From positions 124,001-188,000 of the forward strand of contig CANRGJ010000003.1 of assembly GCA_947630175.1 (NCBI GenBank): DNA of 64,000 bases, read 5' to 3'. The notes under the pieces are model-generated. The model was not told the origin of the DNA. It saw only the letters and a list, made by a program, of their open reading frames with translations, and made no database searches. Of this stretch, positions 9,733 to 37,358 are shown one piece after another. Position numbers and translations under genes: made by a program. Source of the stretch: an uncultured Ruminiclostridium sp. GTDB taxonomy: Bacteria; Bacillota; Clostridia; Oscillospirales; Ruminococcaceae. Positions within the stretch are counted from its first letter, which is position 1. Every line of letters starts with the position of its first letter.

Positions 9733-9738
9733 TTTTGT

Positions 9739-18441: not shown

Positions 18442-18850
18442 AAAATTTTCTAAGGAGAGCCTGAGAGGATTTCTTTTTTCAAAAGAAATCCTTTCAGAGG
18501 GCGGGAGCAAATTGCCCAGCTCCAATACGGCGGTTTTCGCTTGCGAAAACGATTTTCCATAAGGGAAAATCGAGCCGTGTTGGACGTACTTCCGGCTTGC
18601 CAGAAGTACCAAACAGCGGGGCGCTGGCAGTGCACAGTGTAAAGTGCTAAGTGAAAAGTTATGGGTGAAGGGAAGGGTGCGGGGGCGGGAGGGTGGGGCG
18701 CTGGCGTAAAACTGGTCTGCACAACACAAAAGTGAAAAGCTGTGCTAATCGCTCTCCAAAAGCAACACTCTCCAAACCAAGGCCGTGAAAGTATAACAAC
18801 AAACACCATAATTAAATTAACTGTACACTATACACTTTACACTGTGCACT
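18442..18850 (-). repeat. B-family intergenic repeat, copy 4 (reverse), split by a D element
   Basis: CTAAGGAGAGCCTGAGAGG, the GGATTTC hairpin, then a D element (18,521-18,609), then the GTGCACAGTG array, GTCTGCACAACACAAAAGTG, ATAATTAAATTAACTG and a closing ACTGTGCACTG array. It is preceded by a GCGC/GCGC mini-hairpin next to the mnmG start. Confidence 0.85.
18521..18609 (+). repeat. D element, copy 1
   Basis: Outer stem TCCAATACGGC / GCCGTGTTGGA encloses two hairpins (GTTTTCGC/GCGAAAAC and ATTTTCC/GGGAAAAT). A third hairpin follows outside (GTACTTC / GAAGTAC). It is nested inside a B repeat. Confidence 0.8.
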
Positions 18851-18884
18851 GCCAAGTCCTCGCTCTGCTGCGCATTCGCTAAAA

Positions 18885-18945
18885 GCTCTGGGAGGATTTC
18901 TTTTTGAAAAAAGAAATTCCTCCCAGACCCTCCTTAGAAAATCTC
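18885..18945 (+). repeat. Isolated B-type hairpin module
   Basis: TCTGGGAGGATTTC...GAAATTCCTCCCAGA hairpin followed by CCTCCTTAGAAAATC. This is the right-hand end of a B repeat without the rest, directly next to a D element. Confidence 0.65.
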
Positions 18946-18947
18946 TG

Positions 18948-19032
18948 TCCAATATTGCGGTTTTGCGAAGCAAAATGAATTGCATTAAGGGCAATTCAAG
19001 CAATGTGGGATCGTGTTTGCGCAAGCAAACAC
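18948..19032 (+). repeat. D element, copy 2
   Basis: Outer stem TCCAATATTGC / GCAATGTGGGA, inner hairpins TTTTGC/GCAAAA and AATTGC/GGCAATT, third hairpin GTGTTTGC / GCAAACAC. Same architecture as copy 1 with different, still paired, stems. It ends 27 bp before the gyrA stop. Confidence 0.8.
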
Positions 19033-19058
19033 TGACCGCTTTGCGGCGCTTTTCTTTT

Positions 19059-21701
19059 TTATTCTTCGCTTTCGCTTTCCTCTTCAGGCTCTTCCTCCGC
19101 AACGACCTCGCCTTGCTCCTCCAGCTCAGCAGCCTTTATCTCCTCCTCGCTGGCCTGCTCCACCTGCTCGGTCTCAGCACTGTCGTCATGCTCGGTGCGG
19201 GTGAACGCCACTACCTTGCTGTCGCCTGAAAGCCGCATTACACGCACGCCCGTGGCGTACCTGCCCATAACCCTTATATCATTGGCACGAATGCGGATTA
19301 TCACACCGTCAGTGTTTATCAGTATAACGTCGTCGTCAGGACCAAGCGCCCTGATTCCGCAAACATAGCCCTTTTCCTCACTCACCTTGTAGTTGAGTAT
19401 GCCGTAACCGCCCCGCTTCTGTACACGGTAGCCCGTCACACCACAACGCCGTCCCATACCCTTGTCGGTGACGGTGAGCAGGGTCATATTCTCGTCATAA
19501 GCCTTGCAGGAACCCACGATATAGTCGTTGTCCCTCAGCTTTATCGCCCTGACGCCGTGAGCAGTCCTGCCCATCTTGCGTATGTCGGATTCAAGGAAGC
19601 AGATTATAGCGCCGTTTCTGGTGGCGACCATTATGTGAGCGTCGCCCTCGGTGAGGAATGCGGCGGCTATCTCGTCGCCCTCGTCAAGCCCTACGGCACG
19701 AAGTCCGCCCTTGCGCAGGTTCTTGTATTCGGAAAGCTGTGTGCGCTTTATCTTGCCCTGCTTGGTGACGCAGATGAAATACTTGTTCTCGCTGAAATCG
19801 GAAGTCTTCATCATTGCGGCAACACGCTCGGCCTCGGACAACTGGAGCAGGTTTACAATGTTAGTTCCCCTGCTTTGCTTTCCGCCCTCGGGAATTTCGT
19901 AACAGCGCAGCTTGTACATATTTCCCATATTTGTGACAAAGAGAATATCGTCGTGGCTGGAAGCAACGAACAGATCCTCCACAAAGTCCTCTTCACGCTG
20001 TTTCATACCCGTAACGCCCTTGCCGCCACGCTTTTGCAGGTTGTAGACCTCCATTGACTGACGCTTGATATAGCCGATGTTGGTGAAGGTGATTACGCTT
20101 TCCTCCACAGGGATAAGGTCCTCGATGTCCACTTCCCCGCTAACGTCCTCGATAGAGGTGCGGCGCTCGTCGCCGTATTTCTTCTTTATAACTTCAAGCT
20201 CGGAGGAGATGACCTCAAGAACACGCTTTTCGTCAGAGAGAATGAACATATAGTCCTTTATCCTGTTCATAAGCTCCGCAAGCTCGCCCTCTATCTTCTC
20301 ACGCTCCAAACCCGTCAGCTGTCCTAAACGCATTTTCACGATAGCGTCCGCCTGCGCCGTGGATAAGCCTACGGTATGCTCAAACTGTATGTCGGCGTAC
20401 TGCTCGCCCATAGCTCTGTGGAGCAGGTTGGAAAGGTCAGCCTCCTTGAAGCGCTCCATCAGGCGCTCCTTGCCCTCCTGCTCGGTCTTGCTGGAGCGAA
20501 GTATGGCTATTACCTCGTCAATGTTGTCGATAGCCAGCATAAAGCCTTGCAGTAAGTGCGCCCTATCCTTGGCTTTTTCAAGGTCAAAGGCCGTCCTGCG
20601 GCGGACTACGTCCTTCTGGAAGTCGATGTAATTGGTGATAAGCTCTTTCAGGTTAAGTATCTTCGGCTCGCCGTTCACAAGCGCCAGCATGATAACTCCC
20701 ACCGTGTCCTGGAGCTGGGTGTAGTTGTACAGCTTGTTCAGTACCACGTTGGCGTTGGCGTCGCGCTTCAACTCAATAACTATCTTCATACCGCTGCGGT
20801 CGCTCTCGTCACGCAGGGCGGAGATACCCTCGATACGCTTTTCGTTCATCAGTGCGCCAATATTTTCCATAAGGCGCTTTCTTATCACCATATAAGGCAG
20901 CTCGGTGATAACTATGCGGGTGTGAGTCTTTTCCTCCACGATCTCCGCCCTGCCGCGGAGAGTCAGCTTGCCGCGCCCTGTCAGATACGCGCTCCTTATC
21001 CCCGCCCTGCCCATAATTATTCCCCCTGTGGGGAAGTCAGGACCCTGTATCATCGACATTATGTCCTGAACGGGCACGTCGGGGTCGTCTATCACTAAAT
21101 TTATCGCGTCTATCACCTCACGGAGATTGTGAGGCGGAATATTTGTCGCCATTCCCACCGCAATTCCCACACTGCCGTTCACCAGAAGATTGGGGAAACG
21201 GCTGGGCAGGACCGTGGGTTCGGGTATCTTGTCGTCATAGTTCGTGCCGAAATCAACGGTATTCTTGTTGATATCCGCCACCATTTCCCCCGCAATTTTG
21301 CTCATTCTCGCCTCGGTGTAACGATAAGCGGCAGGGGGGTCGCCGTCCACGGAGCCGAAGTTTCCGTGACCGTCCACAAGCGGGTATCTCAGGCTGAAAT
21401 CCTGCGCCAGGCGCACCATAGCGTCATAAACGGAGGAGTCGCCGTGAGGGTGATACTTACCCAGCACCTCGCCTACGGTGTAGGCGCATTTGCGGTAAGG
21501 GTTCTCATAAGTATTATTGGATTCGTTCATTGTATAGATTATACGGCGGTGAACGGGTTTAAATCCGTCACGCACGTCGGGCAGGGCACGCTGTACGATA
21601 ACGGACATGGAATATTCCAGGAAGGATTTTCGCATTTCGTTGTCGATATCCACTTGAATGAGCTTTTCCGTGGAGAGATTTTCGTTGGTTTCGTCGGGCA
21701 T
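19059..21701 (-). CDS. gyrA: DNA gyrase subunit A
   Basis: 880 residues from the ATG at 21701 (AAAGGAG upstream; the 16-residue longer frame is in a repeat border). Catalytic Tyr in [10 protein letters not shown], quinolone region [20 protein letters not shown], and the GyrA box QKRGGKG (residue about 530) that marks gyrase rather than topoisomerase IV, followed by a C-terminal beta-pinwheel. It ends in an acidic tail ([12 protein letters not shown]), known in other GyrA to modulate wrapping. Gyrase introduces negative supercoils. gyrB lies 2.7 kb upstream on the same strand, separated by three small genes. Confidence 0.96.
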
Positions 21702-21751
21702 AAAAATACTCCTTTGTAAGTAATATAATAAAATCGCGCGCAAGCGCAAAT

Positions 21752-22077
21752 AAAATTTTCTAAGGAGAGCCTGAGAGGATTTCTTTTCTCAAAAGAAATC
21801 CTTTCAGAGGGCGGGAGCGTTTTGCCCGCAAGGGCAACAGCGGGGGGCTTGGCAGTGCACAGTGTAAAGTGCAAAGTGAAAAGTTATCTGTGAAGGGAAG
21901 GGACTGGGGGAGGGAGGGTGAGGCGCTGGCGTGAAGCTGGTCTGCACAACACAAAAGTAAAAAGCTGTGATAACCGTTCTCCAAAAGCACCACTTTCCCA
22001 ACCAAGACCGTGCAAGTATCACGGTAAACCCCATAATTCAATTAACTGTCAACTGTACACTGTACACTGTCAACTGT
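21752..22077 (-). repeat. B-family intergenic repeat, copy 5 (reverse)
   Basis: Fills the gap between the gyrA start and the YcxB-like gene. A GCGC/GCGC mini-hairpin borders the gyrA leader. The right-hand array (ACTGTACACTGTCAACTGT) touches the stop codon of the next gene with no spacer. Confidence 0.85.
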
Positions 22078-22674
22078 CTATATGTTTTTATCCTCAAAAT
22101 ACTCCTTTAACGCGCCTGCCTGCTCATCAGTCAAACACCTCTTGGGAAATATATAAATAAGCGACCGATTGAGAAACAGCAGGAACATCTCCTCCGTTTC
22201 CATAGAGTCCAGCGTGTTTGAGGCAAGCTCTATCTTCGTCTTATCATGCTTTATCTCCTGCTCGGGCGGTATCTCCACGTCTTCGCCCACAGGGATTATC
22301 CCCTTGCTTGTTATCGCAACCGTTTCCGTCTGCTCGTCAGGCAGTATCTCGGTGTCCACCGTGATATGGCTTTGCGCAAACTCAGCGGTGTAGGTCTCTC
22401 CGCCAAGGCTGTCCAGCGTCTTCATCAGCTTTTTTCGTGCATAGTAGGGTCTTGCCCATACGGAAATCGCCATTCCCAGTCCCAGCACGAACAGGATATA
22501 CCCCGCCATACTGCCGCTGTTTTTCAGTATCAGGTCAAAGCCCAGAACTGCAGCTATGACATAGACCACTGTGAAAATGATATTCCTTTTCAGCGTGTAT
22601 TTGCGGAGAAACAGCTTGTAGGCGGTTTCTATTTCTTCGTTGGTGTTGTCGTATTTTATGGTGATCGTTTCCAT
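22078..22674 (-). CDS. YcxB-like membrane protein
   Basis: 198 residues. Two adjacent transmembrane helices at about 30-50 and 55-75, followed by a cytoplasmic domain. The C-terminal segment EEMFLLFLNRSLIYIFPKRC then LTDEQAGALKEYFEDKN fits the YcxB-like domain, whose function is unknown. The leader NEEIETAYKLFLRKYTLKR resembles the start of other members. It is the first of the small genes between gyrA and gyrB. The stop TAG is followed directly by a heptad array. Confidence 0.6.
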   Translation of the reverse strand: METITIKYDNTNEEIETAYKLFLRKYTLKRNIIFTVVYVIAAVLGFDLILKNSGSMAGYILFVLGLGMAISVWARPYYARKKLMKTLDSLGGETYTAEFAQSHITVDTEILPDEQTETVAITSKGIIPVGEDVEIPPEQEIKHDKTKIELASNTLDSMETEEMFLLFLNRSLIYIFPKRCLTDEQAGALKEYFEDKNI

Positions 22675-22684
22675 TGTTACTCCG

Positions 22685-22966
22685 ACTGTCAGTGTACAGT
22701 GCGCAGTGCAAAGTACACAGTAAAATTTGATTTTTATGTTTTCGCCTGATAATGCGGGTGTGCGTTGGCTTTCACTTTTGTGTACTGCATACCAGCTTCA
22801 CTTCTGCGCCCCACCCGCTGTTTGCGGCAAAGCCGTAAACACGCCTTCCCGCCCACAGCGTTGCTCCTTCAACCTTCTCTTTCCCGCCTGCCATTCAAAT
22901 CCATTTTTCGGCAAAGCCGAAAAACTCCACAACTGTCAACTGTGCACTTTACACTGTCAACTGCCA
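22685..22966 (-). repeat. Truncated C-family repeat (reverse)
   Basis: Heptads on the left (CAGTGTACAGTGCGCAGTG), then the C blocks TTGGCTTTCACTTTTGTG, CCCGCTGTTTGCGGCAAAGC, TCCATTTTTCGGCAAAGCCG and an ACTGTCAACTGTGCACTTT array. It lacks the CAATTGCG to GGTACC half of full C repeats. Confidence 0.75.
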
Positions 22967-23362
22967 TCATCTCGATCCAGCAATGATCATTCCCACCGCA
23001 AAGATCAAGCACGCGGCACAGGCGGCTATCGCCACAACCACGTCCATAACCTTCCCTTTTTTCCAGAAATCGGGAATGTTAAGCCCGCATACCACCGCAA
23101 GCGAGATAAGCATAAACGGCAACAGCACGCCCAGTTCGCCAAATCCGAACACCATTGCAACTATGGCAAACGCCCACAGCGCAACGCATACCCCACCCGC
23201 TATCCTTTTCGCAAAGGCAAAGGGCGCCTCTTCCTCGGCGTTTTTTATAGCGTTCGCCGTCATCTCGAGCCGCTTTTTCTTCTCCTCTTCGCTCTCGTCG
23301 TGGATAGGCTCCATTTCGGATAAAAGCTGTATTATCTTCTCGTTGTTTTTGTGGGAATTCAT
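22967..23362 (-). CDS. Small membrane protein of unknown function
   Basis: 131 residues from the ATG at 23362, chosen for AGGAGG 6 bp upstream. The N-terminal half is highly charged (ESEEEKKKRLEMTANAIKNA, likely helical) and the rest has about three hydrophobic segments: residues 51-69, 73-92 and 106-128. I do not recognise a family. It sits between the YcxB-like gene and a 60-residue gene and has a repeat on each side. The stop TGA is 2-3 bp from a heptad array. Confidence 0.6.
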   Translation of the reverse strand: MNSHKNNEKIIQLLSEMEPIHDESEEEKKKRLEMTANAIKNAEEEAPFAFAKRIAGGVCVALWAFAIVAMVFGFGELGVLLPFMLISLAVVCGLNIPDFWKKGKVMDVVVAIAACAACLIFAVGMIIAGSR

Positions 23363-23417
23363 ATAGTTCCTCCTGAAAAATAACAGACCGCGTACTCTTT
23401 TGAAAGAAAGCTCCAAG

Positions 23418-23506
23418 TATTTCCGCCAAAGGCGGAAATACGATCCAAAATTGCTTGATTTTCCCTAAAGGAAAATCATATTGCTTCGCAATACCGCAAT
23501 ATTGGA
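23418..23506 (-). repeat. D element, copy 3 (reverse), plus a partial copy
   Basis: Hairpin TATTTCCGCC / GGCGGAAATA, then TCCAAAATTGC ... GCAATATTGGA enclosing ATTTTCC/GGAAAAT and ATTGC/GCAAT. It stands alone, not inside B or C. A partial copy follows at 23,532-23,566 (TTTCCGCC/GGCGGAAA then GCGATCCAATAT). Confidence 0.8.
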
Positions 23507-23579
23507 CACGTTGTGCAAGACATATTGTTGTTTTCCGCCAAAGGCGGAAATGCGATCCAATATGTAATACGGTATCTAC

Positions 23580-23762
23580 TTACTTATTTCCGCCAAAAAG
23601 GTTCTTTGCGGCGTCAAGGATATTGCCGCCCTTATCGCCTATCTTGTCCTTTACCTGCTCCAGTGTTTCCTTGTCTGCGAACTTCTTGAGGAAGTCCATT
23701 ATCTGCTGTTCGTCCAGCTTGTCAATTACGCTTTTTGCGATAGCTTTGATATCGAAATCCAT
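23580..23762 (-). CDS. Small helical protein of unknown function
   Basis: 60 residues, start ATG at 23762 with AGAGGAC upstream. The sequence is entirely amphipathic helix by appearance (MDFDIKAIAKSVIDKLDEQQ, FLKKFADKETLEQVKDKIG) and ends in FGGNK. No signal peptide or membrane segment. I do not recognise it, but codon-like composition and the start signal support a real gene. A C repeat follows about 60 bp after the stop on one side and a partial D element precedes. Confidence 0.5.
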   Translation of the reverse strand: MDFDIKAIAKSVIDKLDEQQIMDFLKKFADKETLEQVKDKIGDKGGNILDAAKNLFGGNK

Positions 23763-23819
23763 TTTTGTGTCCTCTTTTCGTTATTATTTTGTGATATTTC
23801 AGAGCTTTCTTTCAAAAAA

Positions 23820-24460
23820 GCACAGTTGGTAGTTGACAGTGTACAGTTGACAGTTGACAGTTGTGGTGTCCGCTTCGCGGACGGATTGGAAGGGCAGGTG
23901 GGAGAGAGAAGGTTGAAGGAGCAAGGCTGCGGGCAGGGAAGCGTTTTTGCGGCTTTGCCGCAAACAGCGGGTGGGACGCACAAGTGAAGCTGGTATCCGC
24001 AACACAAAACTGAAAGCCAACCCACGTCCCTGCCCATTAAACAACATTGGTAAACGACCTTCCCTAACCGCACAACGCCGTGCCGCACATTACACGCCTG
24101 TGGTAGCGACCCGCAGGGGCGCGGGACCAAACCTCGCAATTGCGAACACTATAATCAGCAGATTAAGAAGAAGTCGAGCAGGCAAATTTGACACGGTAAA
24201 CTAAAAATAAAGTTTTTCCGGAATTCTTAAAACCGCCTTTTCCGAAAAAGGCGGTTTTAAGCGGGGCGGCCGCGCCGCGACCGCACGGTACCGTGCAAAA
24301 CCGTTACCAACATCTCCCGATTAGGCAGACATAAAAATCAAAAAGGTACAACCTTTTCCAAAAACAAAACATTGCCTTATCAAGCGCCGCAAGATAAAAA
24401 TTAAGTCTAACTTATACACTGTACACTGTCAACTGTACACTGCCAAGCCCGTCCTGCTAA
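23820..24460 (+). repeat. C-family intergenic repeat, copy 3
   Basis: Heptad array GACAGTGTACAGTTGACAG, GTCCGC/GCGGAC hairpin, GAAGGTTGAAGGAGC, the TTTGCGGC hairpin, CAATTGCGAAC, AAAACCGCC/GGCGGTTTT, GCACGGTACCGTGC, ATTGCCTTATCA and a right-hand ACTGTACACTGTCAACTGT array, ending six bases before the gyrB stop. Confidence 0.85.
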
Positions 24461-24465
24461 GGACC

Positions 24466-26457
24466 TCAGATATCCAAATTCTGCACATACTGCGCATTCG
24501 TCTCAATAAACTCTCTCCTCGGCTCCACCTTGTCCCCCATAAGAATGGAGAAGGTAAGGTCGGCTTTTGCCGCGTCCTCCAATGTCACCTGAAGCATAGT
24601 GCGGGAAGCAGGATCCATAGTGGTCTCCCACAGCTGATCGGGGTCCATCTCACCAAGACCTTTGTACCGCTGTACCTCCACCTTGGCGTTGGTGTCGCCC
24701 TGAAGCTCCTTGATATACATATCCCGTTCCTCGTCAGAGAAAGCATATCTTATCTTTTTCCCCCTGCTCACCTTGAACAAAGGCGGCTGAGCAAGGTAAA
24801 CGTGCCCCTCCTCGATAAGCGGGCGCATAAAGCGGAAGAAGAAGGTGAGCAGCAGCGTTCTGATATGCGCGCCGTCAACGTCGGCATCTGCCATTATAAC
24901 AACTCTGCCGTAGCGCAGCTTGGTTATGTCAAACTCGTCGCCCAGTCCCGTACCCAGCGCCTTTACCACAGGGGTCAGCTTGTCGTTGTTGTATACCTTG
25001 TCAACGCGGGCTTTTTCCACGTTCAGCATTTTTCCCCAGAGAGGGAGGATAGCCTGATACTTGCTGTCCCTGCCCTGCTTTGCGGAGCCGCCTGCGGAAT
25101 CTCCCTCTACGATATATATCTCGGTCTTGGTGACGTCCTTTTCGTAGCAGTCGGACAGCTTGCCCGGCAGTCCCGCGCCGTCGGAGGCGGACTTTCTCTT
25201 TGCCTCCATAGCCTTCTTGGCGGCGTCACGGGCGGCCTGACCGTTTATCGACTTTATGACTATCGCTTGTGCGGTATCGGGGTGTTCCTCAAAGTAATAG
25301 GTCAGCTTTTCGCTTACCACCTTGTAAACGGCGGGTCCTACCTCGGGATTTCCCAGCTTGCCCTTGGTCTGTCCCTCAAATTCACATTCGGGGAGCTTGA
25401 CGGAAATGACTGCGTTTATAGCCTCTCTTATAGCCTCGCCGCTGAGAGCGACAAATTCCTCTTTCTTGTCATCGTCCTTTTTCTTGGCAGTTTTCTTGCG
25501 GGAATTAGCCGCCTCTTTTTCCTTATACGCCTTTACAAAGTCGTTTACAACCTTATTAAGTCCCCGCTTGAAGGCAAGCTCGTGAGTACCGCCGTCAACG
25601 GTGTGGATATTGTTTGCGAACGAACGGAACGCCTCGCTGTTGAAGTCGGTGTTATATTGGAACGCCACCTCAACCATTATGTCGTCAACGGTGTCTTTCA
25701 GGTAGATTATATCAGGGTGCAGGCGCTCTGCTCCCCTTTTCTCCTGGAGCCAGTCAACGTACTCCACGATACCGCCGTCATATTTCAGCGTTTCTCCCTT
25801 TATGTCGTCAGGGTCACGCAGGTCGGTAAGGTCTATCTGTATACCCCCGTTAAGGAAAGCCTGTTCCCTCATACGGTCAAGGAGAATATTATAGTCATAA
25901 TTCAGGTCGTGGAATATCTGTCCGTCCGCCTTAAATTTTACGGTAGTGCCTGTTTTGTCGGTCTTGCCGATAACTTTCAAAGGTTCGGAGTAGTTTCCTC
26001 TGTCGAAATGCTGGAAATGCACGTCCTTTCCGTCGTAAACGGTAAGTTCCAGCCACTCGGACAAGGCGTTTACAACGCTGGCGCCCACGCCGTGAAGTCC
26101 ACCTGATACCTTATATCCGCCGCCGCCGAACTTTCCCCCTGCGTGAAGGATAGTATAGACCACCGTGGCGGCGCTTATTCCCTCCTTGGGGTGAATGCCC
26201 GTGGGGATACCTCTGCCGTTGTCGCTGACCTGTATGATATTGTCGGGGAGTATCTTAACGTCTATCTTCGTGCAGTAGCCTGCCAGCGCCTCGTCAATGG
26301 CGTTGTCCACTATCTCGTAAACCAGGTGGTGCAGACCGCTGGGTCCTGTGGAGCCGATGTACATACCGGGGCGCTTGCGCACCGCCTCCAGTCCTTCCAA
26401 TACCTGTATATCCTCGGCGCCGTAGCCGTGTTCTACCTTCGTTATCTCGTCTGCCAT
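24466..26457 (-). CDS. gyrB: DNA gyrase subunit B
   Basis: 663 residues. GHKL ATPase motifs: EIVDNAIDEALAG, DNGRGIP, and GGLHGVGASVVNALS. TOPRIM Glu and metal site in EGDSAGGSAKQGRDSKYQAI and DADVDGAHIRTLLLTF. C-terminal GyrA-interaction region RYKGLGEMDPDQLWETTMDP. The ATG at 26457 has AAAGGATC upstream and a strong promoter about 85 bp away. A stretch of Lys/Asp/Glu (KKTAKKKDDDKKEEF, residue about 320) is a low-complexity insert in the transducer domain. GyrA is encoded downstream. Confidence 0.96.
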   Translation of the reverse strand: MADEITKVEHGYGAEDIQVLEGLEAVRKRPGMYIGSTGPSGLHHLVYEIVDNAIDEALAGYCTKIDVKILPDNIIQVSDNGRGIPTGIHPKEGISAATVVYTILHAGGKFGGGGYKVSGGLHGVGASVVNALSEWLELTVYDGKDVHFQHFDRGNYSEPLKVIGKTDKTGTTVKFKADGQIFHDLNYDYNILLDRMREQAFLNGGIQIDLTDLRDPDDIKGETLKYDGGIVEYVDWLQEKRGAERLHPDIIYLKDTVDDIMVEVAFQYNTDFNSEAFRSFANNIHTVDGGTHELAFKRGLNKVVNDFVKAYKEKEAANSRKKTAKKKDDDKKEEFVALSGEAIREAINAVISVKLPECEFEGQTKGKLGNPEVGPAVYKVVSEKLTYYFEEHPDTAQAIVIKSINGQAARDAAKKAMEAKRKSASDGAGLPGKLSDCYEKDVTKTEIYIVEGDSAGGSAKQGRDSKYQAILPLWGKMLNVEKARVDKVYNNDKLTPVVKALGTGLGDEFDITKLRYGRVVIMADADVDGAHIRTLLLTFFFRFMRPLIEEGHVYLAQPPLFKVSRGKKIRYAFSDEERDMYIKELQGDTNAKVEVQRYKGLGEMDPDQLWETTMDPASRTMLQVTLEDAAKADLTFSILMGDKVEPRREFIETNAQYVQNLDI

Positions 26458-26538
26458 TTCTGATCCTTTCCTTTTTCTTTTTTATTTGAAAAACATCTTG
26501 TTTCATTCAAGCGAATATATATTAAATATAGTATATTG

Positions 26539-26567
26539 ATTATAGCATATTTTGAGAAATTTTTCAA
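26539..26567 (-). promoter_or_regulatory. gyrB promoter
   Basis: TTGAAA, 17 bp, TATAAT with TGC immediately before the -10 (extended -10). About 85 bp upstream of the gyrB start. The remaining 170 bp to the next terminator show no further feature. Confidence 0.75.
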
Positions 26568-26735
26568 GTATTTTGAGGGGTTTATCCTTGTTGGAAAGGG
26601 CTTTTTTTCATTTTTGCAGGGGAGATCTTATTACCTGTGGCGGGAGGGCGCTGACATTGTTTGTGTGGGCGAAAGGTTCAGTTCACAAACGGAATAAAGA
26701 TGCGTTGACTAATGGTGTAAAATTGTGCAAAAAGA

Positions 26736-26792
26736 AAAACCGTTATTCATTCTCACTCCCTTTATTCGGGAACGAGAAAGAACAACGGTTTT
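26736..26792 (-). terminator. Terminator after the lipoprotein gene
   Basis: AAAACCGTTGTTC on the minus strand pairs, with mismatches, with GAATAACGGTTTT, with an inner stem of CTCGTTCCCG / GGGAGTGAG. A T-rich tract follows (TTTTTCTTTTTG). Confidence 0.65.
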
Positions 26793-26814
26793 GTCGTAAG
26801 TTTATTTATCGTGT

Positions 26815-27435: not shown

Positions 27436-27470
27436 AATATATCCTCTCTGTTTATTTTTTCACGTTAAGA

Positions 27471-27499: not shown

Positions 27500-27528
27500 T
27501 AATCAAAAACGTTTTTTGTCACTATTCA

Positions 27529-28160: not shown

Positions 28161-28174
28161 TTTTCTTTCTTTTA

Positions 28175-29311: not shown

Positions 29312-29339
29312 ATGATTTCCTGAAAATAAAAATAAAAAT

Positions 29340-29690
29340 AAAAAGGCGAGCGAAGCGAGAAGTAAAATTTTCTAAGGAGAGTCTGAGAGGATTTCTTTTT
29401 TCAAAAGAAATCCTTTCAGAGGGCGGGAGCGACTGCGCAGCAAAGCGGGGCGTTGGCAGTGCACAGTGTAAAGTGCAAAGTGAAAAGTTAATGTTGAAAG
29501 GAAGTGGTCAGGGGGCGGGAGGGTGGGGCGCTGGCGTGAAACTGGTATGCACCACACAAAAGTGAAAATATGTGAAAAAACGCTTTCCCATATCACCACT
29601 CGCAAACCAAGACGGTGAAAGTATCACGGTAAACTTCATAATTCAATTAACTGTCAATTGTCAACTGTACACTGTCAACTGTCATCTGCC
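29340..29690 (-). repeat. B-family intergenic repeat, copy 7 (reverse)
   Basis: GCGAGCGAAGCGAG, CTAAGGAGAGTCTGAGAGG, the GGATTTC hairpin, GTGCACAGTGTAAAGTG, CACACAAAAGTGAAAA, ATAATTCAATTAACTG, and an ACTGTACACTGTCAACTGTC array that encodes the end of the S4 gene (Asp-Ser-stop). Confidence 0.85.
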
Positions 29691-29896
29691 AACACACACC
29701 TATACTTCTTCCCTTCCACCTCTACAACTTCTCCACCGCGCAGCTTTTTCCCTCTCATAAGACAGACCTCTCCGTCAACTCTTACAAGTCCCTCAGAAAT
29801 GACGTTTTTCGCCATTCCTCCAGTGTCGGCAAAACCGCACAGCTTTAAAAACTGTTCCAATTTTATGAAAGGAGGCCTGATATATACTTCCTCCAT
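29675..29896 (-). CDS. S4-domain RNA-binding protein (YaaA/RlbA-like)
   Basis: 73 residues. IKLEQFLKLCGFADTGGMAK then ISEGLVRVDGEVCLMRGKKL is an S4 fold, as in the small protein encoded between dnaN and recF in most Firmicutes (YaaA in B. subtilis, implicated in ribosome assembly). It starts 3 bp after the dnaN stop with AGAGG inside the end of dnaN, so the two are coupled. The final Asp-Ser and stop are encoded by the heptad array of a B repeat. Confidence 0.88.
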   Translation of the reverse strand: MEEVYIRPPFIKLEQFLKLCGFADTGGMAKNVISEGLVRVDGEVCLMRGKKLRGGEVVEVEGKKYRCVLADDS

Positions 29897-29899
29897 ATA

Positions 29900-31000: not shown

Positions 31001-31309
31001 AATTGCACCTTCCTGACGGTAATTATTTTTTGAAGTCAGTTTTTTCCACTGACGTTATTTGCAGAAAAAAATTTTTTTAAAAAATAAATTCTTATAAATA
31101 TATATATTTCTTTTTTTATTATTTAGGCGGGTAAAATGTGGAAAAGCTATGCAAGTCCGTTTCTTGAAAGGACAGGTTGCAGGTTTAAAATAAGTTGAAA
31201 TTTTTCTGAAAGGTTTAAAGATTTTTATTTTAAACTTTTTAACAGGGTGAGGTGGAGGGAAAGAGGAAAATTTGGTGGACAAATTTTCCTATGAGCAGGT
31301 GTCTGCTTT
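31001..31309. other. AT-rich dnaA-dnaN spacer, possible origin half
   Basis: No ORF of merit. It contains a long run of A/T (31,062-31,125, including ATAAATATATATATTTC) that could serve as an unwinding element, one match to the DnaA box TTWTNCACA on the minus strand (31,137-31,145, TTTTCCACA) and a one-mismatch neighbour near 31,040 (TTTTCCACT). Bipartite origins flanking dnaA are known in Firmicutes, so this is a candidate, not a demonstration. Confidence 0.35.
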
Positions 31310-31938
31310 ATAAATTACATATTATATCTTGTTTCGCTTGATAAGGCAGTGTGTGTATTTAAAAAAAGGTATACCTTTTGGAATTGATTTTTATGTCTGC
31401 CTAATCGGGTGATGTTGGTAACGGTTTTGCACGGTACCGTGCGGATGCGGCGCGGCCGCCCCGCTTAAAACCGCCTTTTTTGGAAAAGGCGGTTTTAAGA
31501 ATTCCGGAAAAACTTTATTTTTAGTTTACCGTGTCAAATTCGCCTGCTTGACTTCTTTTTACTCCACAAGTGGTAATGCTCGCAATTGCGAGGTTTAGTC
31601 CCGCGCCCCTGCGGGTCGCTGCCACAGGCGGGCAACGTGCGGCACGGCGTTGTGCTTTAGGGAAGGTCGTTTACCAATGTTGTTTAATGGACAGGGTTGT
31701 GAGTTGGCTTTCAGTTTTGTGTTGCGGATACCAGCTTCACTTGTGCGTCCCACCCGCTGTTTGCGGCAAAGCCGCAAAAACGCTTTCCCGCCCGCAACTT
31801 TGCTCCTTCAGATTTATCCAACCAACTACTAACTATTATCAAACTAACAACTATTTCCCCCTGCCATTCCAATCCATTTTTCGGCAAAGCCGAAAAATAC
31901 CACAACTGTCAACTGTGCACTGTACACTGTCAACTGTT
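31310..31938 (-). repeat. C-family intergenic repeat, copy 4 (reverse)
   Basis: TGATAAGGCAGTGTG, GCACGGTACCGTGC, AAAACCGCC/GGCGGTTTT, CGCAATTGCGAGG, GCCCCTGCGGGTCGC, the TTTGCGGC hairpin, TTTTTCGGCAAAGCCG and a closing ACTGTGCACTGTACACTGTC array that ends 4 bp before the dnaA stop. It splits dnaA from dnaN. Confidence 0.85.
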
Positions 31939-31940
31939 TC

Positions 31941-33299
31941 CTATGCGTTATTCGCAATATTCTTCAGCAGATCCTCAATTGTTGCCTTATAATTCGGATC
32001 CTTCTTAATAATAGACTTCACCTTATTTATAGCATACACCACGGTAGAATGATCCCTGCCGCTGAATTCATTTCCTATCGCTGTGTAGGAAAGCCCGGTT
32101 ATACGGTTTATCAGATACATAGCTACCTGCCTTGCAGAGGATATCTGACTGCTCCTTCTTGGTCCCAAAATCTCTTCGGGAGTGACGTTGTAGATATGTC
32201 CAACCTCGCTGATTATCTTGTCCACCGTTACGGGAACAGGCTGCTGCTCTGTGAGGATATCCCTGATTATGTTCTGCGCCATTGCCATTGTGGGAGGAAC
32301 TCCCGTTACCGTGGTCATAGCGTTCATCTTTATCATAGCGCCCTCAAGCTGTCTGATGTTCTTTTTCAGCTTGTCCGCCATATACTCCATTACGTTGGAG
32401 GGGATATGCATATTGAGCAGCTCCGCCTTGCGCTTGATGATAGCGAGCCTTGTTTCAAATTCGGGAATGCCTATATCCGTCAACAGTCCCCATTCAAAGC
32501 GACTGCGCAGTCTTTGCTCAATGTCGTTTATCTCCTTGGGAGGACGGTCAGATGTAAGGATTATCTGCTTTCCCTTCTGGTGAAGCTCGTTAAAGGTATG
32601 GAAAAGCTCGGTCTGGCTCTCCTTTTTCCCGCTGAAAAACTGCACGTCGTCTACAAGAAGCATATCGCAGGTCCTGTATTTGTGCTTGAATTCGTCGTTT
32701 GTGTTGTATTTCAGGGAATTGACGAATTCCGTGACGAAATTTTCCGCTGAGATATATATTACCTTGCAGGTGGGATTCTGACTTTCCATATAATTCTTAA
32801 CAGCGCAAAGGAGATGCGTCTTTCCAAGTCCCGGCTCGCTGTAAATGTAAAGCGGATTGTACTGTCCCGTCTGCCCTGCCGCTATGGACTTGCAGGCGGA
32901 ATAAGCAAGACGGTTGCTGTCCCCTACTATAAATGTATCAAAAGTATGATTATAGTTGCTGTTTGCTATCGTAGTCTCCAGCTTGTGGCTCATATCCTCG
33001 TCGTCCTCAAGCTCCGGGATAGGGTCGCAGAACTTCAGCCTCTGCTCAGGTGTCAGGTCATGGACGGAAAGTATCTCAAACTCCACGTCAAAGCCCAGTA
33101 CCTCGTGAAAAGCGGTCTTGAACATATTGACGTAGTTGTTGAAGAATATCTCCTTCTCGTAGGGGTGACTGACGTAAAGCACCACGGTGTTCCCGCTGAG
33201 CTTGACGGGTTTTATCGGATCGATAAAAAGCCTTCTGGCAGTATCGGTTATCTCAAGGCTGTCCTTGACTACTTCAAAAATTTCCGCAAATGAATTCAT
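31941..33299 (-). CDS. dnaA: Chromosomal replication initiator DnaA
   Basis: 452 residues. Domain I about 1-80, then a short linker. AAA+ domain with Walker A EPGLGKTHLLCA, Walker B MLLVDDVQFFSGK, and the sensor region LRSRFEWGLLTDI. Domain IV holds the DNA-binding signature FSGRDHSTVVYAINKVK near the C-terminus. DnaA-ATP unwinds oriC and controls its own promoter. The ATG at 33299 has GGGAGAG about 10 bp upstream and a promoter 109 bp upstream. All genes to the left run with this one, so the origin is probably between dnaA and feoA. Confidence 0.97.
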   Translation of the reverse strand: MNSFAEIFEVVKDSLEITDTARRLFIDPIKPVKLSGNTVVLYVSHPYEKEIFFNNYVNMFKTAFHEVLGFDVEFEILSVHDLTPEQRLKFCDPIPELEDDEDMSHKLETTIANSNYNHTFDTFIVGDSNRLAYSACKSIAAGQTGQYNPLYIYSEPGLGKTHLLCAVKNYMESQNPTCKVIYISAENFVTEFVNSLKYNTNDEFKHKYRTCDMLLVDDVQFFSGKKESQTELFHTFNELHQKGKQIILTSDRPPKEINDIEQRLRSRFEWGLLTDIGIPEFETRLAIIKRKAELLNMHIPSNVMEYMADKLKKNIRQLEGAMIKMNAMTTVTGVPPTMAMAQNIIRDILTEQQPVPVTVDKIISEVGHIYNVTPEEILGPRRSSQISSARQVAMYLINRITGLSYTAIGNEFSGRDHSTVVYAINKVKSIIKKDPNYKATIEDLLKNIANNA

Positions 33300-33653
33300 A
33301 GATAGTTTTCTCTCCCTTTCAAAGATTTTATGTAAAATCCCGTAGAAAGACGTAAGATGTAACGCTTATGTATTTTTAACAAAGAATTTTAAAGATGATG
33401 TGATTTAATTTTATCATACTAAAGCAAAATTTTCAATAACCTGAAACTAAAATTTCGCTGTTTTTCACTATGAAATTTTGTGAAAAATATGAAAAAGTTT
33501 TTTCCCAAAACTAAATAATATGGTTATTTTGTAGTAAGAATTTTGTCGAAATACAAGGTGATGTGGTATTGTAAATAATGCACAACAAAAGCAAAAAAAC
33601 GCAAAAATCCCTTGTAAAAAAATACAAATCTTGTATATTTTCAAAAAAAACCG
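33300..33653. other. Candidate oriC region upstream of dnaA
   Basis: Very AT-rich, non-coding, at the point where gene direction switches from minus (dnaA) to plus (feoA). One DnaA-box match to TTWTNCACA on the minus strand (33,479-33,487, TTTTTCACA), one-mismatch sites at 33,461-33,469 (TTTTTCACT) and 33,576-33,584 (TAATGCACA). No dense cluster of perfect boxes, so confidence is modest. Confidence 0.45.
33408..33436 (-). promoter_or_regulatory. dnaA promoter
   Basis: TTGAAA, 17 bp, TAAAAT with TGA before the -10, giving a leader of about 100 nt. Near-consensus DnaA boxes 25-50 bp upstream could mediate autoregulation. Confidence 0.7.
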
Positions 33654-33682
33654 TTGACAAAATAAGGGACACAGGTTATAAT
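33654..33682 (+). promoter_or_regulatory. feo operon promoter
   Basis: Perfect consensus TTGACA, 17 bp, TATAAT. Transcription would start near 33,689, directly at the first candidate operator, a layout that fits repression. Confidence 0.85.
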
Positions 33683-33689
33683 ATTCATT

Positions 33690-33707
33690 GGTTAGCAGGA
33701 GCTAACT
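33690..33707 (+). promoter_or_regulatory. Candidate iron-regulator operator 1
   Basis: GGTTAG CAGGAG CTAACT: inverted hexamers separated by six bases, at the likely transcription start of feoA. The half-site resembles the TTAGGTTAG / CTAACCTAA halves bound by DtxR/IdeR-type repressors, but the spacing differs. Confidence 0.65.
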
Positions 33708-33722
33708 TTTATTTGGAAAATA

Positions 33723-33740
33723 AGTTAGTCTATACTAATT
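33723..33740 (+). promoter_or_regulatory. Candidate iron-regulator operator 2
   Basis: AGTTAG TCTATA CTAATT, same 6-6-6 layout, centred 33 bp (three helical turns) from operator 1 and just before the feoA ribosome binding site. Confidence 0.6.
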
Positions 33741-33756
33741 AAAGAAGGGTGAAACA

Positions 33757-33969
33757 ATGATGCCGCTTGCACTTGCGAACATCGGAGAAGAAAACATAAT
33801 CAAAAAAATAGGCGGTAAGCCCGAGGTTAAACAGCACCTTGAAAATTTAGGTTTCGTAGTAGGCGGAACTGTGAAGATAGTCAGCACCTTGGGCGGAAAC
33901 GTTATTGTGAACGTGAAAGAGGCAAGGATAGCCATAAGTAAGGAAATGGCGAATAGGATAATGGTGTGA
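33757..33969 (+). CDS. feoA: FeoA-domain protein 1
   Basis: 70 residues. SH3-like FeoA fold: GGKPEVKQHLENLGFVVGGT then VKIVSTLGGNVIVNVKEARI and AISKEMANRIMV, where the LGF-x-G-x-V and C-terminal A-I-x-x-x-x-A pattern is typical. FeoA is a small cytoplasmic partner of the ferrous-iron transporter FeoB. Start ATG at 33757 with GAAGGGTG upstream; a second ATG follows directly. It is first in the feo operon under two candidate operators. Two bases after its stop a heptad array begins. Confidence 0.88.
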   Translation: MMPLALANIGEENIIKKIGGKPEVKQHLENLGFVVGGTVKIVSTLGGNVIVNVKEARIAISKEMANRIMV

Positions 33970-34135
33970 AGACAGTTGACAGTGTACAGTTGACAGTGTA
34001 CAGTTGTGGAGTCCGCTTCGCGGACGGATTTGAAATGACAGGTACAAATTTGCAGGCGGCAATCCTAAATCTATCGCCGAAGGCGATACCACAACTGTCA
34101 ACTGTCAACTGTACACTATACACTGTCAGCAGGGA
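33970..34135 (+). repeat. F-family palindromic repeat between the feoA genes
   Basis: Left heptads (GACAGTTGACAGTGTACAG), TGTGGAGTCCGCTTCGCGG hairpin, GAAATGACAGGTACAAAT, TTGCAGGCGGCAATCCT, a second hairpin (ATCGCC gaa GGCGAT), then CCACAACTGTCAACTGTC as inverted right heptads. The ends can pair over about 35 bp. Confidence 0.85.
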
Positions 34136-34141
34136 GGTTTT

Positions 34142-34369
34142 ATGCAAACATTAAAAGAAGCAAAGATCGGTTCCACCGTGAAGGTGGTAAAGCTCCACGG
34201 CGAGGGAGCAGTAAAGCGCCGCATTATGGATATGGGCATAACCAAGGGCGTTGAGATACACGTCCGCAAGGTAGCGCCTTTAGGCGATCCCATTGAAGTG
34301 ACCGTGAGAGGATACGAGCTGAGTATCAGAAAAGCGGACGCGGAAATGATTGAAACCGTTGACAGTTAA
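34142..34369 (+). CDS. feoA: FeoA-domain protein 2
   Basis: 75 residues. TLKEAKIGSTVKVVKLHGEG, VKRRIMDMGITKGVEIHVRK, VAPLGDPIEVTVRGYELSIR then KADAEMI is the longer FeoA type with the LGDPIE motif. CAGGGAGG precedes the ATG. Tandem feoA genes before feoB are common in Clostridia. The last residues, Val-Asp-Ser, and the TAA stop are encoded by a heptad (GTTGACAGTTAA), so the natural end has been replaced. It lies between two F repeats. Confidence 0.92.
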   Translation: MQTLKEAKIGSTVKVVKLHGEGAVKRRIMDMGITKGVEIHVRKVAPLGDPIEVTVRGYELSIRKADAEMIETVDS

Positions 34370-34522
34370 AAGTTTACAGTGTAAAGTGCACAGTTGTAGA
34401 GTTTTTTGGCTTTGCCGAAAAACGAATTTAAAGTGACTTGTGCTTATTTGCAGGCGGCAATCCTAATCCGTCCGCGAAGCGGACACCTTAACTTTGCACT
34501 TTGCACCATACACTTTTAACTC
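34362..34522 (+). repeat. F-family palindromic repeat before feoB
   Basis: GTTGACAGTTAAAAGTTTAC heptads, hairpin TTTTTTGGC ttt GCCGAAAAA, TTGCAGGCGGCAATCCT, hairpin GTCCGC gaa GCGGAC, then inverted heptads ACTTTGCACTTTGCACC. Same layout as the copy at 33,970 with both hairpin stems replaced. Confidence 0.8.
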
Positions 34523-34526
34523 TACA

Positions 34527-34544
34527 AGTTAGTGTTGCCTAACT
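34527..34544 (+). promoter_or_regulatory. Candidate iron-regulator operator 3
   Basis: AGTTAG TGTTGC CTAACT, a perfect inverted repeat with a 6-bp spacer, 27 bp before the feoB ATG. No clear -35/-10 pair is visible, so it may act on readthrough from the feoA promoter. Confidence 0.6.
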
Positions 34545-34570
34545 AAAAAAAAGAAAGCGAGGATAACAAT

Positions 34571-36973
34571 ATGTCTATTCGTGTTGCTCTTGCCGGGAAT
34601 CCCAACTGCGGTAAGACCACGCTGTTCAACGCTCTGACAGGCTCAAACCAGTTCGTGGGCAACTGGCCGGGCGTCACCGTTGAGAAAAAAGAGGGAAAGC
34701 TGAAAAAGCATGACGACGTGATAATCACCGACCTGCCCGGTATCTATTCCCTTTCCCCCTACACACTTGAGGAAGTGGTTGCAAGAAATTATCTGATAGG
34801 CGAACGCCCCGACGCTATATTGAATATAGTTGACGGCACCAACCTGGAAAGAAACCTGTACCTCACCACACAGCTCACCGAGCTTGGTATTCCCGTTGTT
34901 ATCGCAATAAATATGACGGACGTGGTGGAAAAGAACGGGGACAAGATAAACATAGATGAGCTTTCCCGCGAGCTTGGCTGTAAGGTGATAAACATTTCCG
35001 CCCTGAAAGGAAACGGTATCTTTGACGCGGCGGAAGCGGCGATAGAGGCGGCAAAGGGAACAAAGACCGTTCCCATGCACAACTTTTCGGGGGCGGTGGA
35101 ACACGCCATAGCTCATATCGAGGAAGCCGCTGTTCACGATATGCCCGCCGAGCAGCAGCGCTGGTATGCGATAAAGATATTCGAGCGTGACGAAAAGGTT
35201 TTAGAGAAGCTGAACATTCCCAAGGAAACCCTTGACCATATCGAGCAGGACATAGCTGCCGCCGAGGAAGAACTGGACGACGACGCGGAAAGCATAATCA
35301 CCAACGAGCGTTACATATATATAGCATCGATAATGAAGGGCTGTTACAGGAAAAGGACAGCGGGACAGCTCACCCTTTCCGACAAAATAGACAGGGTAGT
35401 TACCAACCGTTTCGCCGCCCTCCCCATTTTTGCGGTGATAATGTTCCTGGTTTACTATATATCAGTTACCACGGTGGGAACGATAGTCACCGACTGGGCG
35501 AACGACGGAGTTTTCGGCGACGGCTGGCATTTGTTCGGTATAGGAACTTCCGACTACGACGACGCAATGAACCAATACGCCGCAGAAAATATCTGGACAG
35601 ACGAGCTGAAAACCACCGTTCAGAACGCTGTAAATGCGGGCGTTGTAGGCGCTGACGAAATTATGGGCGCAATAGAGGACGAGGATTTCGGCGGATTTGA
35701 CGAAGCGGTGGGAAGCTACGGCGACGCTTTGGCGGCAGAGGGCTTTGACATCTCGGAGATGACTGAGCTTGGCGAGGACGCTCCCGACCCGTCGGAATAC
35801 GGCGTGTGGGTGCCGGGAATACCCGTTCTTCTGGAAAGCGGACTTGACAGCATAAACTGCGCAGACTGGCTGAAAAGCCTTATAATCGACGGTATCGTGG
35901 GCGGCGTGGGCGCTGTTCTGGGATTTGTTCCTCAGATGATAGTGCTGTTTATCCTGCTGGCTATTCTGGAATCCTGCGGCTATATGGCGAGGATCGCCTT
36001 TGTTATGGACAGGATATTCAGAAAATTCGGTCTGTCGGGCAAATCCTTCATACCAATGCTTATAGGTTCAGGCTGCGGCGTTCCCGGAATTATGGCGTCA
36101 AGGACCATTGAAAACGACCGCGACCGCAAAATGACCATAATGACAACCACTTTCATTCCCTGCGGCGCAAAATTGCCCATAATCGCACTTATCGCTTCGG
36201 CTTTGTTCGGAGGAGCCTGGTGGGTAGCCCCCAGCGCATACTTCCTTGGCGTAGCGGCAATAGTTGTTTCGGGAATAATCCTGAAAAAGACGAAGATGTT
36301 CGCAGGCGACCCTGCTCCTTTCGTAATGGAGCTTCCCGCCTACCACCTTCCCACCGTCAGCAACGTGTTGCGCTCAATGTGGGAGAGAGCGTGGAGCTTT
36401 ATCAAGAAAGCGGGAACGATAATCCTCCTTTCTTCAGTAGTGATCTGGCTCGGCTCCAGCTTCGGCACTTATCTCGGAGAAAGTGGCTCAACAGTTTTCG
36501 GTTTCCTCACCGAAGAAGCGGAGGAAGCTGTCAGCGTGCTTGATTACATCGGCGGCGCCATTTGCCCAATATTTGCTCCTCTGGGATTTGGCGAGGCTAC
36601 CGCCGCAGTTGCAACCATAATGGGACTTGTGGCGAAGGAAGAGGTAGTGGGCGTGTTCGGCGTTCTGGACTTTGCGGGGCTCACCCCCCTTGCGGGCTAC
36701 GCATTCCTTATCTTCAACCTGCTGTGCGCTCCCTGCTTTGCGGCGATAGGCGCAATAAGGCGCGAGATGAACAGCGCAAAGTGGACGTGGTTCGCCATCG
36801 GCTACCAGACGATTTTCGCCTACATAATCGCACTTATCGTTTACCAGCTGGGCAGCCTGTTCACGGGAAACGGAAACATTATCGGCTCCATAGCCGCATT
36901 CCTCCTTGCGGCGGGAATATTGTTCCTGCTGTTCAGACCCTATAAGGAGTCCAACAAGCTGACGGTAAAATAA
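34571..36973 (+). CDS. feoB: Ferrous iron transport protein FeoB
   Basis: 800 residues. N-terminal GTPase: G1 AGNPNCGKTTLFNAL, G2 NQFVGNWPGVTVEKKEG, G3 DLPGIYSLSP, G4 INMTD, G5 NISALKGNG, then a helical regulatory domain to about residue 270. The membrane part has the paired gate motifs (GVGAVLGFVPQMIVLFILLA and GSGCGVPGIMASR, CGAKLPIIALIASALFGG). It carries a periplasmic-side insertion (about residues 310-420, rich in Asp/Ala) after the first helix. It imports Fe(II). GAAAGCGAGG precedes the ATG. A small Cys-rich partner follows by 16 bp. Confidence 0.96.
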   Translation: MSIRVALAGNPNCGKTTLFNALTGSNQFVGNWPGVTVEKKEGKLKKHDDVIITDLPGIYSLSPYTLEEVVARNYLIGERPDAILNIVDGTNLERNLYLTTQLTELGIPVVIAINMTDVVEKNGDKINIDELSRELGCKVINISALKGNGIFDAAEAAIEAAKGTKTVPMHNFSGAVEHAIAHIEEAAVHDMPAEQQRWYAIKIFERDEKVLEKLNIPKETLDHIEQDIAAAEEELDDDAESIITNERYIYIASIMKGCYRKRTAGQLTLSDKIDRVVTNRFAALPIFAVIMFLVYYISVTTVGTIVTDWANDGVFGDGWHLFGIGTSDYDDAMNQYAAENIWTDELKTTVQNAVNAGVVGADEIMGAIEDEDFGGFDEAVGSYGDALAAEGFDISEMTELGEDAPDPSEYGVWVPGIPVLLESGLDSINCADWLKSLIIDGIVGGVGAVLGFVPQMIVLFILLAILESCGYMARIAFVMDRIFRKFGLSGKSFIPMLIGSGCGVPGIMASRTIENDRDRKMTIMTTTFIPCGAKLPIIALIASALFGGAWWVAPSAYFLGVAAIVVSGIILKKTKMFAGDPAPFVMELPAYHLPTVSNVLRSMWERAWSFIKKAGTIILLSSVVIWLGSSFGTYLGESGSTVFGFLTEEAEEAVSVLDYIGGAICPIFAPLGFGEATAAVATIMGLVAKEEVVGVFGVLDFAGLTPLAGYAFLIFNLLCAPCFAAIGAIRREMNSAKWTWFAIGYQTIFAYIIALIVYQLGSLFTGNGNIIGSIAAFLLAAGILFLLFRPYKESNKLTVK

Positions 36974-36989
36974 CTTCGGGAGAAAAATT

Positions 36990-37157
36990 ATGGAACAGTA
37001 CATCTCCACCGCCGTTGTCCTGCTTATCTTAGCGGTGATAATCGGACTGATAATCGTATCAATGGTAAAAGGCAAAAAACAGGGAAAAACCCTTTGCGGC
37101 GGGGATTGCGCCCATTGCCACGGGTGCAGTCACGCTGAGGGGAAAAAAGAGGAATAA
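36990..37157 (+). CDS. FeoB-associated Cys-rich membrane protein
   Basis: 55 residues, reading MEQYISTAVVLLILAVIIGL, a single transmembrane helix, then a basic stretch (KGKKQGK) and a Cys/His cluster TLCGGDCAHCHGCSHAEGKK. Small proteins with one helix and a CxxxC-type tail are regularly encoded after feoB in Firmicutes and are thought to help iron delivery. GGGAG lies upstream. It ends six bases before the operon terminator. Confidence 0.85.
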   Translation: MEQYISTAVVLLILAVIIGLIIVSMVKGKKQGKTLCGGDCAHCHGCSHAEGKKEE

Positions 37158-37160
37158 AAA

Positions 37161-37198
37161 AAACGGGAAACACTTTTTTGGTGTTTCCTGTTTTTGTT
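37161..37198 (+). terminator. feo operon terminator
   Basis: AAACGGGAAACAC / GTGTTTCCTGTTT with a 7-nt T-rich loop, followed by TTTTGTTTT. Confidence 0.85.
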
Positions 37199-37268
37199 TT
37201 AGGTTGAAGGAACAAGGTCGAGGGCGGGAAAGCGTTTTTGCGGCTTAGCCGCAAACAGCGGGTGGGCA

Positions 37269-37358
37269 GTACTTCCGCCGAAGGCGGAAGTACGATCCAA
37301 CATTGCTTGAATTGCCCTAAAGGCAATTCATATTGCTTCGCAATACCGCAATATTGGA
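37269..37358 (-). repeat. D element, copy 4 (reverse)
   Basis: GTACTTCCGCC gaa GGCGGAAGTAC, then TCCAACATTGC ... GCAATATTGGA enclosing AATTGCC/GGCAATT and ATTGC/GCAAT. Nested in a C repeat at the CGGGTGGG/ACGC junction. Confidence 0.85.

Follow-up and report, generated by a model that had tools for sequence, protein, structure and literature searches.

Enterobacterial repetitive intergenic consensus sequences or intergenic repeat units (ERIC/IRU) and BOX elements are small folded repeats of intergenic DNA, miniature inverted-repeat transposable elements (MITEs) are defined by terminal inverted repeats together with a target-site duplication, and the attC site of integrons is a substrate read as a folded single strand, whose stem sequence is free to vary. 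According to passages of one published account (PMC3733652), a repetitive extragenic palindromic (REP) sequence is a palindrome of 20-40 bp with an unpaired GTAG or CGTC tag on one of its ends, and for the GTAG-tagged group a REP-associated tyrosine transposase (RAYT, of the Y1 type) is linked to the repeats. Here, a folded repeat named the D element was analyzed in a window of 64,000 nucleotides (G000:C3:124001-188000) of genome G000 (2.70 Mb, 46 contigs), the close named relatives of which are metagenome-assembled genomes of uncultured 'Ruminiclostridium' from rabbit gut. Multiple copies with filled and empty sites showed that D is mobile, and its stems stay paired although their sequences vary among copies and among species. 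We give about even probability to the reading that D is a mobile, non-autonomous repeat which is defined by its fold, and that an agent acting in trans copies it by way of a folded single strand.

Compared with REP sequences and REP doublets forming hairpins (REPINs), D is likewise a short, intergenic, folded repeat with many copies and with families differing between species, but it forms a three-way junction followed by an external hairpin, and neither a constant GTAG/CGTC tag nor a linked Y1 gene was seen. Its D+ strand, defined as the strand reading TCCAAT...GTTGGA, began with GTCCAAT and ended with the external hairpin; the bases before GTCC varied, and CGTC was present in some copies only. 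D resembled MITEs in being short, non-coding, multi-copy and non-autonomous, but its ends differed, and no terminal inverted repeats and no recognizable target-site duplication were seen. D was thus filed as a variant of the non-autonomous folded repeats, REP- and MITE-like and a member of neither, because it lacked the tag and RAYT link of the former and the inverted ends and duplication of the latter. It differed from ERIC/IRU and BOX in that the core fold was kept in other genera while most stem letters changed. The likeness to attC lay in the variable stem sequence and in a folded single-strand substrate, which for D is presumed; the insertion boundaries of D were unlike cassette boundaries. 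No parent or autonomous element with D ends was seen, the enzyme families searched being Y1, RVT_1 and the Transposase_20 domain of IS110. Rfam searches gave no family match over the cores, either with gathering scores (the window and nine loci) or at E <= 5 (twelve loci), and nothing in the open-access literature, judged by titles and the starts of abstracts, seemed to describe the element.

The D element was about 90 bp long and consisted of a 63-nt three-way junction (the core) and the external hairpin. The junction was composed of an 11-bp outer stem, a hairpin hp1 with mostly a GNA loop, and a second hairpin hp2. On D+ the order was the outer-stem arm TCCAATATTGC, one unpaired G, hp1 (typically G-TTTTGC-GNA-GCAAAA-T), hp2 (typically GAATTNCC, a five-base loop and GGNAATTC), two bases that were usually AA, the outer-stem arm GCAATGTTGGA, a short link and the external hairpin. 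Among 90 distinct cores, taken from the 111 places that were left of 146 matches after 35 had been removed (18 by length, 17 overlapping), the hp1 loop was GNA in 72 and GNNA in 8 (80/90 together). Loops of the GNA/GNNA type with G-C pairs are described, in passages of an earlier study, as forming extraordinarily stable DNA mini-hairpins (PMC4686876). Four copies were confirmed in the window, where a first-pass annotation of this DNA had put them (18,521 and 18,948 on the plus strand, 23,418-23,506 and 37,269-37,358 on the minus strand):

18,521-18,609, plus strand: D copy 1, core 18,521-18,584, outer stem TCCAATACGGC/GCCGTGTTGGA, external hairpin to 18,609
18,947-19,032, plus strand: D copy 2, core 18,948-19,010, external hairpin GTGTTTGC/GCAAACAC
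23,418-23,506, minus strand: D copy 3, core 23,444-23,506, external hairpin from 23,418
37,267-37,360, minus strand: D copy 4, core 37,296-37,358, external hairpin 37,269-37,293, inserted in a C repeat

The outer stem, two enclosed hairpins and external hairpin folded as the annotation had claimed on both strands, and none of 200 dinucleotide shuffles folded as well as the window copy in any of the eight strand folds. The DNA fold z-scores of copies 1 to 4 were -6.5, -5.8, -8.6 and -9.4 on D+, and -7.0, -6.4, -8.7 and -9.3 on D-. The outer stem held to be common to the four was found in three of them, copy 1 having a different one. In one core elsewhere (L037:2002-2133, minus strand), hp2 enclosed another hairpin structure nested within it, which looks like an insertion. 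Palindromes with an hp1-like centre were also present within another repeat at window positions 6,954-6,994 and 37,651-37,691, and gave weak model matches on both strands.

The mobility of D was revealed by comparison with related repeats in the window and with the sister genome G005. The repeat that holds copy 4 had five other copies in the window and the repeat that holds copy 1 had three, all without D. These unstranded places, with one place that is filled in G005 and one partial hairpin, were as follows:

6,640-6,700: empty paralogue of the copy 4 site, a C repeat without D
9,865-9,925: empty paralogue of the copy 4 site, a C repeat without D
23,949-24,009: empty paralogue of the copy 4 site, a C repeat without D
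39,787-39,847: empty paralogue of the copy 4 site, a C repeat without D
60,179-60,239: empty paralogue of the copy 4 site, a C repeat without D
4,960-5,040: paralogue of the host repeat of copy 1, without D
21,794-21,880: paralogue of the host repeat of copy 1, without D, with the hairpin TTGCCCGCAAGGGCAA at the site
29,406-29,490: paralogue of the host repeat of copy 1, without D
9,763-9,778: place without D, filled at the equivalent position in G005 (C4:107477)
23,521-23,564: partial D-like hairpin adjoining copy 3, absent from G005

At the equivalent places in G005, D was absent for copies 1 and 4 and present for copies 2 and 3, and the G005 copies at C4:44929 and C4:107477 corresponded to places without D in G000. 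The empty sites bore out the earlier claim that D moves independently. Four D insertions (copies 1 and 4, C4:44929 and C4:107477) and a related array in G083 were read against empty places. In D- orientation, three of the four started with CAGTAC (copy 1 differed), and the right end lay within a few bases of ATTGGAC. No constant target was found at the four, and the target-site duplication that had been raised as a possibility was not recognizable there, although the C4:107477 site allows a 4-bp TAGT duplication. Small losses accompanied copy 1 and C4:44929, and many other D copies sat inside hairpins of surrounding repeats. The array of G083 was composed of four tandem copies with a period of 123 between two genes which we take, from their translations, to be panC and panD; G082 and G009 were without them there.

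The pairing of the core was then measured across copies and families, with significance taken from shuffles, slid structures and permutation over stem classes. In 31 aligned cores, 98.6% of 806 cells were paired and 15 of the 26 pairs changed on both sides; in 67 model-aligned rows, an alignment that was fitted to the structure and so leans towards it, 98.5% of cells were paired and 23/26 pairs changed on both sides. None of 500 shuffles reached either alignment in any measure, and slid structures scored far lower. The 67 rows included a palindromic place read on both strands (L160), a partial row (L074:1135-1176) and a row with a long insert (L037). Several outer-stem variants entered through sequence searches that matched the inner core alone, therefore their paired outer stems were not selected for. 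Single-linkage clustering of the outer stems merged 99 of 101 cores and was uninformative, so 11 greedy classes (more than four mismatches apart; 100 cores, the partial match L190 being left out) were chosen to reduce relatedness. Matched arms of these classes paired at 106/121 positions compared with a mean of 5.0/11 for mixed arms, and 0/20,000 permutations were as high. These results supported the paired stem changes reported in the first-pass annotation, except that copy 1 carried a mismatch in its external stem and that two cells of copy 2 and one of copy 3 were unpaired (paired in G005). Strong covariation is also expected if D is a structured RNA (a regulator, a part of a tRNA trailer or terminator, or an mRNA leader) that selection maintains where it stands and duplication spreads, and the near-constant hp1 agrees with this explanation.

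Changes at fixed places gave a different picture. Places shared by sister genomes were compared by a regular expression on fetched loci (29, 25 and 7 entries in G000, G005 and G084), which is no census. Of 13 comparison rows, three were dropped for L017/L074, a single locus with differing core types, as were two for 18,521 (a neighbour, not the same copy), and six shared places were kept; one copy was taken from the tandem pairs L066 and L159, for L159 the closer one, and both L066 copies differed from L071 at the same three positions. Core stem differences numbered none at L010/L028, two at copy 2 and one at copy 3 (all three unpaired in the window copy), one at L064/L070, three at L066/L071 and one at L075/L159. 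All eight changes were one-sided: five gave a mismatch in one genome, three kept a wobble and none was compensated. A chimeric copy in L074 whose outer stem is unpaired likewise counts in favour of the fold-defined reading. One-sided core changes, 5/8 of them leaving mismatches, argue against a structured RNA maintained in place. The annotation had left the choice between selection on structure and a copying process that needs structure; the covariation it rested on was strong, and the evidence, which is small, leaned to the copying process because of these eight changes. Strong covariation of the stems from copy to copy and from family to family thus stood beside a handful of core changes at fixed places that were mostly uncompensated, so that covariation by itself does not have to be proof of a working RNA. 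The core covariation seems to arise between copies and between families, with single hairpins being swapped.

Which strand does the work was assessed from wobble pairs and folding. Read on D+, the outer stems of the 90 distinct cores held 64 G.T cells against 7 A.C cells, and D+ gave the better RNA fold for 84 of the cores and the worse one for 5. D+ would be the likelier working strand.

The placement of D near genes was also evaluated. In a set of 119 cores, whose loci were fetched by element matches so that the tRNA counts describe them and give no rate, 41 lay within 350 nt of a tRNA gene, 35 of these on the 3' side and 31 of the 35 with D- as the tRNA strand. In the window's genome, a tRNA was found no more than 400 nt away for 8 of 27 cores, and 7 of these cores lay on its 3' side. 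Additionally, AAAGGAG or a close variant directly followed the D- end in 21 of the 119 cores (by reading the 24 rows with GGAG), all of them from species of the genus other than that of the window. For 20/21 of these, a frame of at least 60 codons started no more than 75 nt away, compared with 24/95 cores without GGAG; three of the 20 were internal units of a single array, for which such a frame is hardly informative. The many cores in tRNA 3' flanks and leaders would suit a structured RNA, but the 31 of the 41 tRNA-near cores named above have D- as the tRNA strand, where the wobbles of D+ become A.C; moreover, both orientations occurred and no Rfam family covered the cores. Together with the one-sided core changes, this makes a structured RNA quite improbable.

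Also near tRNA genes, the motif CAAAAATCTTTTTNGTNACNATNTCAC was present at 15 places of the same genome (<= 3 mismatches; e.g. G000:C4:71040-71481; loci L215-L229), compared with 0 for a reversed control. Nine of the 15 were within 300 nt of a tRNA, and the motif appears to form the end of short units that carry a terminator and stand in a row behind tRNA genes.

The enzymes that could move D were searched for by protein family. Hairpins, intergenic sites and the lack of a recognizable target-site duplication would fit movement of D, as a REP-like element, by a transposase of the Y1 (RAYT/TnpA) type, and G083, the genome with the most model matches (41), contained an uninterrupted Y1 frame. 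However, Y1_Tnp was found in 9/27 genus genomes with cores and in 11/44 without, no Y1 match was present in G005 (36 core matches), and the window's genome had one partial match with an internal stop. None of 30 Y1 loci matched model R2 at E <= 1 (one of 31 Y1 places was without a locus), and neither a constant unpaired GTAG/CGTC tag nor a constant flanking target accompanied D. Since Y1 did not track the cores, the match in the own genome was broken and no Y1 locus held a core, movement by Y1 was rejected and is very improbable; the Y1 transposase suggested by the annotation was thus without a gene linked to D. In chosen genomes, RVT_1 was present in 4/14 bearing cores and 4/10 free of them, and Transposase_20 in 4/14 and 2/10, respectively; both were absent from the window's genome. 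A reverse transcriptase and IS110 were rejected as mobilizers, with no link to the cores in the 24 chosen genomes. A fragment of an IS110 Transposase_20 was located about 450 bases from a core at G016:C207:7363-8030.

In the fold-defined reading of D, copying would involve a single strand in its folded form, which may be DNA and may be D+, and copies with broken stems would consequently leave few offspring, while single hairpins would additionally be exchanged between copies. A putative protein supplied in trans would recognize the junction and insert the strand into hairpins. The same protein may also join D into the 3' flanks of tRNA genes and between the Shine-Dalgarno sequence and the start codon; in some species an AAAGGAG of its own follows the element, so that a gene need not be silenced by an insertion before it. 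A more specific form, possible but rather doubtful, is shape-recognized mobile DNA, in which a dedicated enzyme would take folded D+ by its junction and GNA mini-hairpin, ignore most stem letters, and place D at tRNA ends, hairpins and ribosome-binding sites, some elements carrying a Shine-Dalgarno sequence that would reset translation of the next gene. D also offers a testable case of DNA mobility that depends on folded shape.

Several observations weighed against the fold-defined reading. No mobilizing enzyme was found by searches for Y1, RVT_1 and IS110 Transposase_20, and the uninterrupted Y1 frame lies in the very genome with the most matches. With the surrounding DNA of the sister genomes about 93% identical (about 7% divergence), eight changes are a weak test of compensation, as few second changes are expected. 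That D recurs next to tRNAs and ahead of start codons could be a sign of use by the host. The strand bias was reduced to 7 G.T and 3 A.C when counted per stem class (11 representatives), the sequences used to train model R1 were in D+ orientation, and when folded as DNA, D+ had the lower energy in 3/4 window copies and the lower z-score in 1/4. At L075/L159, L068/L076 and C3:116567/G005:C4:118724, the external hairpin differed in both arms with pairing kept, a pattern that a structured RNA would also produce; it was identical at copy 2, copy 3 and L010/L028. Finally, at the tRNA-Arg locus L017/L074 the sister genomes carried wholly different core types. This locus and the external-hairpin differences were counted as exchange or replacement, and L068/L076, C3:116567/G005:C4:118724 and L017/L074 were not among the six shared places. 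The differing hairpin of L068/L076 equalled that of the tandem neighbour, which suggested that single hairpins are also exchanged between copies.

Such exchange is central to another explanation, in which D has no dedicated mobilizer and spreads by template switching during replication, gene conversion and recombination between hairpins, complementarity being produced by correction of imperfect palindromes and by exchange of whole hairpins. Helix 3 (hp2) of the 67-row alignment agreed with it, showing 151 two-sided and 2 one-sided changes, while G.U made up 10.6% in 42 tRNAs of the fetched loci, a figure resting on free RNAfold structures and not on curated cloverleaves. (A separate hairpin finder gave 7.1% G.T in hp2, apparently by running into the loop, and the helix 3 counts were used instead.) The external hairpins differing as whole units at three shared places, the frequent location of D in hairpins without a constant target, and a core that is a chimera of two families and has an unpaired outer stem (L074:1124-1187, minus strand) point in the same direction. 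Nevertheless, the outer stem, whose arms are about 40 nt apart, changed on both sides at all 11 pairs of the 67-row alignment, the architecture recurred in other genera, and a unit with similar ends appeared at four places where relatives have none. Spread without a mobilizer is judged unlikely, and copying of D through a folded strand by an agent in trans keeps its even probability.

Larger repeats, present at many places of the window (e.g. at 6,366, 23,831 and 39,669), had heptamer arms (ACAGTTG on one side, the reverse complement on the other) and hairpins of variable sequence, GTCCGC/GCGGAC being one example; these hairpins likewise differed in both arms, and some of the repeats contained D. 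A B repeat with a D copy was in opposite orientation in G000:C3:116450-116800 and G005:C4:118600-118950, as if inverted between flanking heptamer arms.

The copy number and distribution of D were determined with sequence and model searches. In the window's genome, a sequence search gave 21 matches, model R1 gave 33, and model R2 gave 32, consisting of 27 full cores (E < 1e-13) and 5 weak matches. Seventeen of the 27 cores were D-type. The outer stems of the 27 were TCCAATATTGC in 15, TCCAATACGGC in one, TCCAATATCAC in one, TCCAATCCCGT in three, and the E type (GATTTTTC/AATTTTAC), located in another, longer repeat, in seven. Model R1 matched in 27/71 genomes of the genus. At E <= 1e-5, 12 of 295 genomes of an order sample matched, 7 of them outside the genus, with at least 12 cores in G312 and at least 7 in G156; single matches near 1e-5 (G113, G233) may be chance. 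In a phylum sample of 398 genomes, the window's own alone matched at E <= 1e-6. The order and phylum searches scored few candidates (16 and 12 of the 27 cores of the own genome), so these counts are lower bounds and absence is weak. Copy 4 had no match in phages and plasmids, and two exact core patterns had 0 matches in viral contigs; a phage or plasmid origin of D was accordingly rejected.

Two further features of the window were observed. A T-box leader (RF00230, 123.5 bits) was located at 9,529-9,737 on the minus strand, and a run of 15-bp repeats at 51,538-52,133 lay within a minus-strand reading frame of 2136 aa.

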